DNA of 40,402 bases from Lentimicrobium sp. (lineage in GTDB: Bacteria > Bacteroidota > Bacteroidia > Bacteroidales > Lentimicrobiaceae): NCBI GenBank assembly GCA_019429275.1, contig JAHYJC010000039.1:1-40402 (forward strand). Reading direction: 5' to 3'. Below the pieces are notes generated by a model. The model made no database searches and had not been told where the DNA came from. It saw nothing but the letters and a program-made list of their open reading frames with translations. Positions 1 to 5,248 of the stretch are shown piece by piece. The translations under genes and the position numbers were made by a program. The stretch's first letter is position 1. The number at the start of each line of letters is the position of its first letter.

Positions 1-3000
1 CTTCACCGGTAACCTGAACAGGACCAGCAAAAGTTTCGCAAGGATAATATGTCCATACATAGCTCATCTTGGCCGACATACCTGTTGAATAAACAGCAGC
101 TACTTCAGCAAGATAATCCTGACCTGCTACGAGGTTCTCGGTATTGTACTGATAGAAAGTATTCTCGGTATCGGTCATAAATACACCATCGAGCCATACT
201 TTGTAGTTCTGAAGTTCACGTGTGGCAGCATTGTCTGCTTTGACCATCTTGAATCTCCACCAGGCGCCATTTGCATTGATATCAACTATCATGGTGTTGC
301 CATCATCTGTCAATTCAAATAGATAAGTGATAGAAGCTGGTGCATCATTTGGATTGATAAGTTCTCCGCCATTGTATACTTTGGGCAGGCCCAGAAAGGC
401 ACCGACGCCATTAAGTGTAATAGTACCTGCAACTTCATCGAAATCAAAAGTTGCATTTGCGCTTCCATCATGCGGGGCAACGGGAATACCACATTCATAA
501 TTTACCCCTTGCCATGGTTCAAGGAAGGTTAAGTCATCTAATTCATTGTCGAAAGAGCCATCAGCGCGGAAGATGTATCTGTCGTCCCAGAAACAACTTC
601 TTACTTCGAGGTCGATTCCACCTACTGACCACCATGACATATCGCCCTGAGCAGGACCAACACCCATAGAGCCAAGCTCAGCGGCTACCTGCCATGTGCC
701 TTGCAACGGAGAAGCAGGGCCACCAACACCGCCCCAGCTTGCAAAACCAGCAGGATTGACATAAAGATCAGTAACCGGTAGAAGCTGTTCCTGTAGCAAC
801 CATACAAAATTTTCAGGTGATTCGATCAGGTATCCAGCAAGGTTGATTGGCTCAAACCCGGCTTTGTTCACTGAGATATCATAGGTTCCTTTGCGGAATT
901 CATTCCATATAAAGTAACCTGATGCATTGAGTGTAGTTTCATAAACAAGACCAAGGTCAGGTTCGGAAGTGTTGGCAAACAAAACTATTGTTCCGGCCGG
1001 ACTGTCTTGTGAGTTGGTCGATACCGTAACGCTTACCTGTGTAATCATGTCTTTATCGAGGCAGTTAGAGAAGGCAATTCCGGATGCATTGTTGTCATAT
1101 TCGGCAACAACGCCCCATTTGTAAACACCGGCATCCACGCTACCCCAGGTATTATCCGTAAACTGCTCATCAAGGGTGTAGCCCAAAAATTGCAGGTCTC
1201 CGGTTTCACAAGTGGTACGATAAATACTGAATCCATTCGGCACGCCACCATTGGCATTCCAAACGACTTGTACAACATTGCCGGAAAGTTCTGTTGCAAC
1301 AACATCAGTTGCCGCGTAGGGGAATTCAAGCAAAGCAAAGTCATTGGTTACTGTTGCACCAAAAGGAACAGCAACGGCTTCAAGAGTTTGTGATTCGAAA
1401 GAATTGGCTTCAACCAGGTAATTGTAGGTACCTCCCACAACTTCACCCTGGTAGAAACCAGCGGCGTTGGTTGTGAAAGCAAAGCTAAAATTGCTGTTCG
1501 AAACGATGACAGTTGCACCGGCAATGGCTGCTCCTCCGTCGAAGGCCGTAACAGTGCCATTTACAAAACCACCTCCAGTGATGGTAACAGCATCTGAACA
1601 AACAGCCTCGCTGCAGCTTTCGGCGCCACTATCATAAATATAAGTGAGGCAGTATGAGTAAGTGCCAAACTCAAGGCTTTCGTCAAGGAAAGAAGAAACA
1701 GAACCAGTTGTGAAATCAAGCTCAGTATATGTCTGACCATTTCGATAAATACGTAAAGCTGAGATGGTATCCAGGGCAGCAGCATCAACATTTGTCCAGG
1801 TCAGGTTGATGTCAAGTGAACCAATAACCTGTTCTGCAACGAAAGCTTCAGGCGTTGCGTAATTATCGCAGGCAACATATTTCCATGTAAATTCAGCAGT
1901 AGCTGACTGGCCTGTTGTGAAAACAGCCGCAACACCGGTGGTGTATGTTTCGCCATCAACCAGGGTTTCGCCAAATCCGCCGTGTTGGTATACATTCTCA
2001 GACTGTTCACCTATCAGGATTCCGTCGAGGAAGATTTTGTAGGTTTCTAAGGAACGGTTGCTGAAACCTTCCTTAACCATTTTAAATCTCCACCAGCCAC
2101 CACCAATACTGATGTCAAGGATCATGGTGTTTCCTCCATCGGTTAATTGTGCAAGATATGTAATCGATGATGGGGCATTGTTAGGATTGTTCAACTCTCC
2201 GCCGTTATATACTTTAGGAATGCCCAAATAGGCACCAATACCATTGAGTGTAATAGTGCCGGCGCTTTCATTGTATTCGTACGTAGCATCAGCAGAACCA
2301 TCATGGGGTGCCACCGGAGTTCCACAATTATACCAGCCACCTTGCCACGGTTCGAGGAAAGTCAGGCCATCCATTACATTTTGGAATGAGCCATCAGCGT
2401 TGAAAATATATTTATCGTCGAAGAAGCAGGCACGTGCCGCAAGTTCTCCGGCAGGAACCGACCACCAACTCATGTCGCCCTGAACAGGGCCAACACCAAA
2501 TGATCCGGGCTCGTTGGCTACCATCCATGTACCTTCCAGAGGTGATGCTGAGCTCCAGCTTGCCAATCCTGTTGGCGTAACATAAAGGCTTGCTGGTGTG
2601 GCAAGGGTTTCGACAAGTAACCAACTGAACGAAGTTTCATCAAAAATATCGACGCCGGTTTCCGATATTGTTCCATAACCTGGTAAGCTCACTTCAATAT
2701 CGTAAGTTCCTTTGCGGAAACTGTCCCATGTGTAAATGCCATCTGCACCTAAAGTTGTGGCATATGTCAATTCGGGTGACTCGTCAACATTGGTAAACAC
2801 GACTGAGGTCCCGGCAGGACTATCAGCTGAATTGAGGACTGCAGTGACATCAACCATGGTAAACATATCTTTGTCGATCGGGTTCGAAGCAACAGGATCT
2901 GATTGATTGAGATCATATACAGCAACAACATACCATTTGTAAACACCCCAATCCTGCATACTCCATCCGAAATCGACGAACTGCATTTGTGAAGTAGTAC

Positions 3001-5248
3001 CAATCATTTCCATTGCTCCGGGAAGGTAAGATTTTTTACGCCAGATCTGAAATTCGACCAGGGCGCGAGCATTGGCTGCCGGATCAAAGCTGTATTGGAT
3101 GAGTATGTTTTCACCAAATACGCTTGCTGTAACAACTGCAACGGGATAGGCTGTTTCAAACAGCATAAAGTCGGTGGTTTGAGTGGCCCCATAAGCTACG
3201 GCTATTCCTGTTTCTTCAGCACTTATGTAGCCATTGGCAGCAACGCTGATATTATAAGTACCGGCAAAAACATCAGCTGTATAGTTGCCATTGGCATTGG
3301 TAGTGGTGGAATATGACTGCATTTCACCAAACTCATCCACGCCGGTCATGGTAACAGTAGCACCGGCAATATCATCACCAGTATTCAGGTCAGAAACATG
3401 ACCATTTAGAGTGCCTTCACCTGTGACCCGGGCAGTAAAAGTGGCTGAGAAGCCAGATTCCCCCTCATCATAAATTGAGGTTACATTATAATTATAACCT
3501 GCCATATTATAGGCAGGAGCTGCATCGGTGTATGCAGTTTGGGTTATCATTGTACTATTGATCATAACCCCGTCGCGATAAACATTGTAACCAAGAAATG
3601 CACGATTAACAGGACTTTCCCAGGACAGTACAACATCCTCACCTTCATAAACTTCTGCATTGCCGTTTAAACCGGTTGGTGGATTTAAAGTTGTCGTGAA
3701 TCCCCATATCTCCGGATTAATAGTTGTACCGTTATTATTTCGGGTATTTACCTGCCAGAAATATTGAAGATTCGGTTGCAGATTCGCTAAAGTATAAGCG
3801 CCCGGGACAGATGCTTCCTTCACCATTTTATATCTCCACCAGCCACCACCGATACTGATATCAAGGATCATAGTGTTTCCACCATCGGTGAATGAAGCAA
3901 GATATGTAATCGATGACGGGGCATTGTTTGGATTGCTCAACTCTCCACCATTGTAAACTTTGGGAATGCCCAGATAGGCACCAACACCATTGAGGGTAAT
4001 TGTGCCGGCACTTGCATTGTAATCGTAAGTAGCATCAGCAGAACCATCATGGGGTGCCACCGGAGTTCCGCAATTATACCAGCCACCTTGCCACGGTTCG
4101 AGGAAAGTCAGGCCATCCATTACATTTTGGAATGAACCATCAGCGTTGAAAACATATTTATCGTCGAAGAAGCAGGCACGTGCCGCAAGTTCTCCGGCAG
4201 GAATTGACCACCAACTCATGTCGCCCTGAACAGGGCCAACACCAAATGATCCGGGCTCATTGGCAACCTTCCAGGTGCCTTCAAGGGGAGATAGGGTTTC
4301 TGTAATAGCACTTGTCCAGTCAACAACAACATTAGCAGGAGGATAAGTTGTTCCAAGAATTACCTGATATTCCAGTGTATTGGCACCAAACGTCCACTCA
4401 AGTTCCATTCCGTTAATGATGTCTGTAGCTCCATCAGCAGGCGCCACATAAACAGCAGCATCGGCAGATGGCATGGCCACAGCCGTAATATTAAGATCAA
4501 ATGTTGCACCGGTCGTGCTTACTACAAGAAAGTAATCACCGGCAAACATTTCAAGGTTTGTCGCCACACCTTCTGCAGCATAAATCTCATTGCCTGCGCG
4601 AGGACCATCATTGGGCGCAAAATCAGCTTCATAAATAGCCATTTTGGCATTAGCAGCTGTAAGATTCACTGAAACCAGCTGATCTGATGCAAGGCTAAAA
4701 CTGTAAACCGCATCAAATCCATCAGTTACAGGTCCTGCCAAAGTGTAATTATTTACAAAACCGGCAGTTGAAACGCCGGAAAGGTTAACCGGAAAACCAG
4801 CTACCAGAAATGGATCTTCATAAACATCACCTTCAACAGGCGTGTATGCATTGGCTGAGACCGGCGCAAACACAACATTGCGTGATCCGTCAAACAGTAT
4901 GGCTATCTGTCCGGTGACATTTCCTGCCGGAACATTGCTTTGTAGGAAAACACCGAAATCAGCAGTTGCGCCTGCTGCAATTGTTAAGGGTAGAAATGGA
5001 AGATCCAGGCCAAAAGCTTCCGGATTGTCAGTTTCAATATTGGTAATGAATAGTGTAACAGGTGAAGTGTTCTCCAATGTTACTGTTAAAGGTTCCATCC
5101 ACGCACCTATAGGTCTGTCACCAAGGTTGAGCACCTGTGGTGTAATCGTGAGGCTTGCCTGAGCCATCAGCTGGGCAGTTCCAAACAACAGCATTACTGT
5201 CATCATTAATGAACCAAGCCAGCGTAAAAAGGTAGTTTTTACGTACAT
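1..5248 (-). CDS. Giant secreted modular protein with fn3, carboxypeptidase-regulatory and 158-aa modules (3' end outside window)
   Basis: Seen: an uninterrupted minus-strand reading frame of 1749 codons from the ATG at 5248 to the left edge, with no stop. Residues 1-30 form a Sec signal peptide with a hydrophobic core, cleaved near LMA-QA. Residues ~31-135 resemble an ASPM/Hydin-like beta-sandwich and ~136-265 a pre-peptidase C-terminal type domain. Repeating blocks follow: fibronectin-III-like halves, a carboxypeptidase-regulatory-like domain (GATVTMTG...NGNYTADVFAGTYNI), another fn3-like domain, a second regulatory-like domain (FRKGTYDI), and a 158-residue module present three times (residues 320-477, 902-1059, 1513-1670). 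The block period is 582 then 611 codons. Inference: a cell-surface or released adhesin or glycan-binding protein. A T9SS sorting domain is expected at the missing C-terminus but not seen. No catalytic domain is recognised in the visible part. No convincing promoter was found upstream. Confidence 0.9.
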   Translation of the reverse strand, partial: MYVKTTFLRWLGSLMMTVMLLFGTAQLMAQASLTITPQVLNLGDRPIGAWMEPLTVTLENTSPVTLFITNIETDNPEAFGLDLPFLPLTIAAGATADFGVFLQSNVPAGNVTGQIAILFDGSRNVVFAPVSANAYTPVEGDVYEDPFLVAGFPVNLSGVSTAGFVNNYTLAGPVTDGFDAVYSFSLASDQLVSVNLTAANAKMAIYEADFAPNDGPRAGNEIYAAEGVATNLEMFAGDYFLVVSTTGATFDLNITAVAMPSADAAVYVAPADGATDIINGMELEWTFGANTLEYQVILGTTYPPANVVVDWTSAITETLSPLEGTWKVANEPGSFGVGPVQGDMSWWSIPAGELAARACFFDDKYVFNADGSFQNVMDGLTFLEPWQGGWYNCGTPVAPHDGSADATYDYNASAGTITLNGVGAYLGIPKVYNGGELSNPNNAPSSITYLASFTDGGNTMILDISIGGGWWRYKMVKEASVPGAYTLANLQPNLQYFWQVNTRNNNGTTINPEIWGFTTTLNPPTGLNGNAEVYEGEDVVLSWESPVNRAFLGYNVYRDGVMINSTMITQTAYTDAAPAYNMAGYNYNVTSIYDEGESGFSATFTARVTGEGTLNGHVSDLNTGDDIAGATVTMTGVDEFGEMQSYSTTTNANGNYTADVFAGTYNISVAANGYISAEETGIAVAYGATQTTDFMLFETAYPVAVVTASVFGENILIQYSFDPAANARALVEFQIWRKKSYLPGAMEMIGTTSQMQFVDFGWSMQDWGVYKWYVVAVYDLNQSDPVASNPIDKDMFTMVDVTAVLNSADSPAGTSVVFTNVDESPELTYATTLGADGIYTWDSFRKGTYDIEVSLPGYGTISETGVDIFDETSFSWLLVETLATPASLYVTPTGLASWSSASPLEGTWMVANEPGSFGVGPVQGDMSWWSVPAGELAARACFFDDKYIFNADGSFQNVMDGLTFLEPWQGGWYNCGTPVAPHDGSADATYEYNESAGTITLNGIGAYLGIPKVYNGGELNNPNNAPSSITYLAQLTDGGNTMILDISIGGGWWRFKMVKEGFSNRSLETYKIFLDGILIGEQSENVYQHGGFGETLVDGETYTTGVAAVFTTGQSATAEFTWKYVACDNYATPEAFVAEQVIGSLDINLTWTNVDAAALDTISALRIYRNGQTYTELDFTTGSVSSFLDESLEFGTYSYCLTYIYDSGAESCSEAVCSDAVTITGGGFVNGTVTAFDGGAAIAGATVIVSNSNFSFAFTTNAAGFYQGEVVGGTYNYLVEANSFESQTLEAVAVPFGATVTNDFALLEFPYAATDVVATELSGNVVQVVWNANGGVPNGFSIYRTTCETGDLQFLGYTLDEQFTDNTWGSVDAGVYKWGVVAEYDNNASGIAFSNCLDKDMITQVSVTVSTNSQDSPAGTIVLFANTSEPDLGLVYETTLNASGYFIWNEFRKGTYDISVNKAGFEPINLAGYLIESPENFVWLLQEQLLPVTDLYVNPAGFASWGGVGGPASPLQGTWQVAAELGSMGVGPAQGDMSWWSVGGIDLEVRSCFWDDRYIFRADGSFDNELDDLTFLEPWQGVNYECGIPVAPHDGSANATFDFDEVAGTITLNGVGAFLGLPKVYNGGELINPNDAPASITYLFELTDDGNTMIVDINANGAWWRFKMVKADNAATRELQNYKVWLDGVFMTDTENTFYQYNTENLVAGQDYLAEVAAVYSTGMSAKMSYVWTYYPCETFAGPVQVTGE
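239..712 (-). repeat. 158-codon module, copy 3 (most diverged)
   Basis: Residues 1513-1670, 474 bp, from SPLQGTW to WWRFKMVK. It keeps the same landmarks with substitutions (AELGSMGVGPAQGD, VRSCFWDDRYIFRADGS, EPWQGVNYECGIPVAPHDGS). It lies between NPAGFASW and LQNYKVWLDG, the same position in an fn3-like domain as copy 2. Confidence 0.82.
2072..2545 (-). repeat. 158-codon module, copy 2
   Basis: Residues 902-1059, again exactly 474 bp, from SPLEGTW to WWRFKMVK. Counted by eye it differs from copy 1 at about 39 of 474 bases, and most differences lie in the two ends. It sits between TPTGLASW and LETYKIFLDG, the two halves of an fn3-like domain. Confidence 0.85.
3818..4291 (-). repeat. 158-codon module, copy 1 (N-terminal)
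   Basis: Residues 320-477 of the giant protein, from SPLEGTW to WWRYKMVK, exactly 474 bp. Landmarks are GVGPVQGDMSWWS, ARACFFDDKYVFNADGS, LEPWQGGWYNCGTPVAPHDG and GAYLGIPKVYNGGEL. It lies between an fn3-like half ending DWTSAITET and one starting AYTLANLQPNLQYFWQV. From memory, modules of this type are common in secreted proteins of marine Bacteroidetes, some of them GH16 enzymes; the function is not known to me. Confidence 0.85.

Follow-up and report, generated by a model that had tools for sequence, protein, structure and literature searches.

Three copies of one self-contained module are nested in frame within loops of other domains of a single large surface protein encoded in the window, i.e. 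the whole of contig C75 (40,402 nucleotides) of a 4.19 Mb Lentimicrobium sp. genome assembled in 108 contigs. The module matches the lipocalin-like fold of the C-terminal domain of BfSGBP-B, a beta-1,3-glucan binder (PMC7157763, as given in excerpts of that paper), and its hosts are continuous domains in homologous proteins. We consider it probable that a module from a glucan locus was captured once and copied to three nested sites of the surface protein, where the copies would act as binding heads.

Three nested copies in one surface-protein gene

The gene begins with a stretch that reads, by eye, like a signal peptide, and its product gives CarboxypepD_reg and fn3 profile matches. All three module copies share its minus-strand open frame, which runs off the contig end. 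The features first needed are:

2..5248, minus strand: large surface-protein gene, 1,749+ aa, with CarboxypepD_reg and fn3-like repeats; its 3' end is beyond the contig
3815..4291, minus strand: module copy 1, 159 aa, in the loop between the C'-like and E-like strands of the N-terminal fn3 domain (strand names assigned from sequence)
2069..2545, minus strand: module copy 2, 159 aa, in the B-C loop of an fn3-like domain
239..712, minus strand: module copy 3, 158 aa, in a B-C loop like that of copy 2
3419..3682, minus strand: fn3 domain of this protein without an insert (VVLSW..YNVYRDG), with approximate boundaries

The original prediction had reported three nested modules of exactly 474 bp. The three nested copies were confirmed; the exact length holds for a shared core of 158 codons, and the copies as aligned measure 159, 159 and 158 aa. 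The uninterrupted comparator with which the hosts had been compared (VVLSW, ten residues, YNVYRDG) was found in the protein as claimed. Removal of the module, predicted to leave 13 residues at copy 2 and 18 at copy 3, left by pattern count 12 and 18, respectively.

Compared to copy 2, the protein sequence of copy 1 is 94% identical and that of copy 3 is 72% identical. At the DNA level, copies 1 and 2 agree at 438 of 477 nt (92%), copies 1 and 3 at 332 of 474 nt, and copies 2 and 3 at 331 of 474 nt. The match between copies 1 and 2 spans 479 nt and stops at the module edges; in the 60 nt beyond each edge, 10-nt blocks are 0-50% identical. The dS of 0.324 and dN of 0.031 between copies 1 and 2 show purifying selection. 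For copies 1 and 3 (dS 1.65, dN 0.224) and copies 2 and 3 (dS 2.26, dN 0.212), dS is near saturation. The module gave neither a Pfam nor an NCBIfam match.

Host domains and their empty and filled sites

Judged by its sequence, the host of copy 1 is an fn3 domain whose two halves are continuous in homologues.

4292..4474, minus strand: N-terminal part of the fn3 host of copy 1, ending in DWTSAITET; uninterrupted homologues match Pfam fn3
3689..3814, minus strand: C-terminal part of the fn3 host of copy 1, beginning AYTLANLQPNLQYFW..., with a partial Pfam fn3 match

The domain is split between DWTSAITET and AYTLANLQPN, which are 171 residues apart in the window protein and 5-12 residues apart in all ten paired homologous sites from eight other loci (one further match, in L136, could not be paired and was left out). 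The copy-1 loop is thus empty in homologues, unlike the B-C socket that holds copies 2 and 3. At the copy-2 site, the flanks are 12 residues apart in L076, the closest homologue there. These empty sites at copies 1 and 2 indicate that the flanks are halves of single domains, as had been proposed, and the suggested search for host halves lacking the module did recover homologues with directly joined flanks. Pfam fn3 matched the uninterrupted copy-1 host in L079 (E 1.7e-5, 25.4 bits) and in L076 (E 1.7e-4; at 22.2 bits, short of the curated cut-off of 25). The sole Pfam fn3 stretch in the window protein covers profile positions 41-75 of 84 and starts at residue 478, the last residue of module copy 1. 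Structure prediction, the check originally put forward, was less informative: the fn3 halves were modelled with pLDDT mostly <50, and an intact host around the module was not seen in the models.

Copies 2 and 3 interrupt a second kind of host, preceded by a CarboxypepD_reg domain, which we term fn3-like.

2546..2611, minus strand: first strands of the fn3-like host of copy 2 (YVTPTGLASW)
1853..2068, minus strand: rest of the fn3-like host of copy 2 (YKIFLDG...)
713..790, minus strand: first strands of the fn3-like host of copy 3 (YVNPAGFASW)
26..238, minus strand: rest of the fn3-like host of copy 3 (YKVWLDG...)
1217..1270, minus strand: another such loop (QVVW..GFSIYR), unoccupied in the window protein (6 residues by pattern)
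1..208, minus strand: flank on the downstream side of copy 3, sharing 206 of 208 nt with the end of contig C10

Using 21 of 28 host rows, hhalign aligned this host with three fn3 domains of the same proteins at 84.7% probability (E 6.6e-6) and with the copy-1 host set at 18%, with controls at 0.6 and 1.4%. Pfam fn3 was not found in the uninterrupted copy-2 host of L076, which gave a weak Big_4 match instead (E 0.0024), nor in the L121 host; the match in L119 was weak (E 0.15). The predicted fn3 identity of the hosts therefore stands for copy 1 by Pfam and is reduced to fn3-like, by profile-profile comparison, for copies 2 and 3.

To describe the B-C socket, 26 loci with 97 frames including the window protein were surveyed; the loci were picked for matching the copy-2/3 host, and the counts are proportions among homologues and not of a random sample. 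Host front and back could be paired in 28 rows, two of them from the window, and eight front matches without a back were dropped. Front and back are separated by 165-200 residues in 22 of the 26 non-window paired sockets (the first row of L131, one of the 22, has a doubtful back match) and by 10-36 residues in the other four. None of the 22 occupants is the module, whose profile found only the three window copies among all 97 frames. Ten occupants match choice_anch_J (NF038128); the others gave weak matches to other models, or none at E 0.01. Since so many sockets hold other domains, nesting in this host is an old and general habit, and what is distinctive here is the occupant, not the nesting itself. 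The QVVW..GFSIYR-type loop is filled by 214-245 residues in L076, L078, L079 and L080, and its occupant in L080 is a Cleaved_Adhesin domain (E 2.4e-34). The occupant of this loop in L076 gave a weak match to 3-keto-disaccharide hydrolase. The suggestion that the module decorates an fn3 rod at fixed points thus fits copies 2 and 3, whose conserved socket receives other domains too, and has to be refined for copy 1, whose loop is otherwise empty.

The region downstream of copy 3 matches a second contig of the same genome, C10, which encodes a paralogous gene with an unrelated domain in the same socket. The agreement starts 31 nt past the module end, at the host strand NYKVW, and upstream of the copy-3 socket the two genes agree at 71%. 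The last 127 nt of the flank are identical in both contigs, which both end there, and a genome search for a third contig with the last 152 nt found none. The shared 127 nt may be a word-length trace of the assembler where two genes enter one tail. The junction fits a putative recombination or gene conversion through the host flank.

Relatives of the module and its candidate ligand

Structural alignments of the module with Bacteroides fluxus SGBP-B (PDB 7kv5, 7kv6 and 7kv7) gave 23-24% identity; Foldseek alone gave no match with E <0.001. The sequence link is weak: profile A2 (38 rows) finds SGBP-B at E 0.0024, and single-sequence searches and the closer profile A6 (15 rows) did not find it. 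Binding of beta-1,3-glucan is known for BuSGBP-B and BtSGBP-B as well as BfSGBP-B (excerpts of PMC7157763). The linear relative L030 is encoded directly after SusC/SusD in a glucan utilisation locus, as identified by profile; L031 and L032 have the same placement by eye, plus GH149, and the nearest relatives with loci examined sit in beta-1,3-glucan loci. The earlier idea of a binding head is supported by this homology to SGBP-B, and the module is a candidate head for beta-1,3-glucan or a similar polysaccharide. SusC/SusD were absent among the 10 other window proteins scanned, and the other side of the gene is beyond the contig; locus context here is consequently silent on the ligand. The C-terminus of the window protein also lies beyond the contig. 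Because its homologue L080 (G011) ends in a Por_Secre_tail sorting domain, the window protein is probably exported by the T9SS.

Module matches were found in 13 of 19 family-level genomes, and those besides the window's three copies are all distant (28-39% identical). At the order level, 12 of 295 genomes match at 1e-10, with close copies in three of the 295 (the window's own genome, G161 and G174); at 1e-25, matches occur in 6 of 395 genomes of the phylum sample and 17 of 395 of the class sample. These samples overlap. In the order of G961, 35 of 108 genomes match at 1e-12. Its letters are identical in L034 (G161, same order as the window genome) and the Bacteroidales locus L030. As to minor observations within the family, distant matches occur in 12 of the 18 other genomes, and two contigs of the window's genome, G000:C63 and G000:C94 (L081 and L082), encode PKD-type proteins with distant module copies (30-37% identical); a SusC gene adjoins the module-bearing gene of G000:C94.

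The proposed search for the module at other positions showed it as a linear, often tandem, domain in most relatives read, and nested in other folds elsewhere. Among the genomes surveyed, it lies inside fn3-like hosts in the window gene only, which is weak evidence of restriction since long repetitive genes break assemblies. Among the matches in the order of G961, 11 further regions were covered, with complete proteins read for four of them. In G961 and G1047, the module occupies the first loop of a lamin tail domain (LTD), with 153 residues between the two LTD halves, and the Pfam LTD match stops at position 46-47 of 109; L224 and L225 show the same kind of nesting. At ten LTD sites in nine loci, picked for showing both halves and not at random, the halves are 0-9 residues apart. 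The second loop of the lamin tail domain is used in G994 (L185), where LTD matches positions 3-90 and the module follows. This module is without both cysteines (positions 40 and 74) that are present in the 14 other A6 rows, and their joint absence suggests a disulfide pair.

A third host is CBM20-like. In L226, the module lies inside a domain whose uninterrupted copies occur in the same protein, and in its 721-aa protein CBM_20 matches the second half only, directly after the module; L232 contains the same interrupted domain. The CBM20-like site of L224 holds a circular permutant of the module, matching profile positions 73-159 and then 3-71, which when turned round matches positions 4-159 at E 1e-53. 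Such a permutant suggests that the ends of the fold are close together, as nesting needs.

The three window copies group as a single clade (100/99) in a tree built from 93 module sequences, and this clade falls within a group with L031, L032, L034 and L044 (90/90; an unstarred fork). A separate clade (100/96) contains the LTD and CBM20-like copies, and forcing all nested copies together was 37.8 log units worse (AU p 0.039). The nested or linear state needs two changes on the tree, and two clades of nested copies are most simply explained by one capture per lineage and spread within each. The grouping of copies in one gene could, alternatively, be due to gene conversion between them.

Alternative explanations and known systems

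In the explanation that we favour, the module would have been captured once, probably from a protein encoded in a beta-1,3-glucan utilisation locus, and then copied to three places in a long surface protein, itself probably exported by the T9SS. Copies 2 and 3 sit in a long-standing socket, the B-C loop of the fn3-like domain that follows CarboxypepD_reg, which in most surveyed homologues is filled by another domain, often of the choice-of-anchor J type; copy 1 sits in a loop that is otherwise empty. The fn3/CarboxypepD_reg chain may serve as a spacer from which the nested modules stand out sideways as several heads, and these may bind beta-1,3-glucan or a similar polysaccharide and so hold the cell or the polymer at the surface. 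If the ends of the barrel are close, it can take the place of a loop and leave the host fold intact, which would make nesting possible; and as recombination may run through conserved host flanks, domains of different origin could share the socket.

Least probable among the readings considered is an ordinary linear arrangement, in which the module is one domain among others in a row and its flanks merely resemble a split fn3. The module's linear and often tandem arrangement in most relatives and the low confidence of the modelled flanks would agree with such a row, but homologues have the flanks directly joined, in all ten paired rows for copy 1 and in L076 for copy 2; the window fn3 match begins exactly where copy 1 ends; and the module also marks the end or the beginning of LTD and CBM20 profile matches in other genomes. 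We also think it very unlikely that the DNA segment moves by machinery of its own, as a mobile element or programmed cassette would. The 92% identity of copies 1 and 2, with no likeness directly outside the module, and the nesting of the family in several folds would suit it, yet the direct repeats across the inserts (at most 6 nt at copy 2, <5 nt at copies 1 and 3) are no longer than those between random pairs of places in the gene, no inverted repeat of at least 10 nt brackets any copy (none at copies 1 and 3, and one pair wholly inside copy 2), each copy keeps the frame, and the same module occurs in ordinary proteins. Recombination between homologous stretches accounts for the DNA pattern without such an element. 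From the predicted spread as a cassette, copying inside the gene and nesting in unrelated folds elsewhere are retained, and signs of a mobile element are not.

A more serious alternative, still clearly the lesser possibility, is that the SGBP-B fold was kept and the ligand is another one (a different glycan, a protein or a lipid), as in an adhesin for cells or surfaces. Lipocalin-like domains bind many ligands, and the window scan without SusC/SusD would agree with this. In the excerpted literature, SGBPs of one group differ in glucan preference (PMC7157763) and an SGBP-B-like protein binds cellulose (PMC12016534). Against it stand the beta-1,3-glucan loci of the nearest relatives and the purifying selection on copies 1 and 2. 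Evenly balanced, and compatible with the capture of a glucan-locus head, is the question whether the copies in the B-C sockets replaced an earlier domain instead of entering an empty loop. Replacement is favoured by the 22 of 26 filled sockets and by the copy-3 site, which another domain fills in L078, in L080 and, truncated at the contig end, in L076; L076 is, however, empty at the copy-2 site, which leaves room for insertion into an empty loop as well.

Nested domains are well known, and each element of the finding belongs to a known kind. As far as our literature searches show, what is new is a module nested three times in one fn3-like protein, the sharing of its socket, the use of several host folds and loops, and the permutant. 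In Bacteroides fluxus SGBP-B, the C-terminal domain is linear, in a protein named PKD domain protein, whereas the window module is nested three times in a long fn3/CarboxypepD_reg protein. In a Maribacter GH16_3 laminarinase, an inserted domain that is 29% identical to BfSGBP-B over 290 residues (excerpts of PMC11345257) interrupts another fold, as in the window protein. This likeness is drawn from the published description alone; the Maribacter host is catalytic (GH16), the hosts of the module family are fn3-like, LTD and CBM20-like, and the family, unlike the enzyme as excerpted, uses several loops and has copies within one gene. The choice-of-anchor J/cleaved adhesin domains of Bacteroidales surface proteins occupy the same fn3-like B-C socket as copies 2 and 3, but are unrelated to the SGBP-B-like module. 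Adhesin domain variants of Porphyromonas gingivalis Kgp, a T9SS surface protein, are exchanged by recombination, which resembles the socket idea, although these variants, unlike the window module, are cleaved adhesin domains (PMC5266723, in its excerpted parts).

Whether SGBP-B-like barrels are general plug-in heads, and the Bacteroidales socket a means for a cell to swap the specificity of a surface rod, we hold to be an even call, with about as much for as against. If true, barrels of this kind would have been nested in at least two separate lineages, in five loops of three unrelated folds (fn3, lamin tail and CBM20-like); in Bacteroidales they would share one conserved fn3-like socket with choice-of-anchor J domains, and recombination via its flanks would change specificity with the rod unaltered. 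The results allow a domain that occurs commonly in one order (35 of 108 genomes) to be named and assigned a likely role, and offer a case of repeated insertion of one domain into other folds in which empty, filled and permuted sites can be compared. An exchangeable socket in large surface proteins would open to testing how bacteria diversify surface recognition.

Some further features of the LTD proteins were observed. In L185 (G994) and L187 (G1053), the lamin tail domain may itself split a choice-of-anchor I domain, which Pfam matches in three stretches of L185 and two of L187 (coordinates are for the best stretch only); the L185 module would then be nested within a nested domain. A second, shortened module occurs at residues 364-490 of L224 (G1112) and 378-500 of L225 (G1108). 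It misses the middle of the profile, at about positions 38-86, and the barrel may therefore tolerate the loss of that part.
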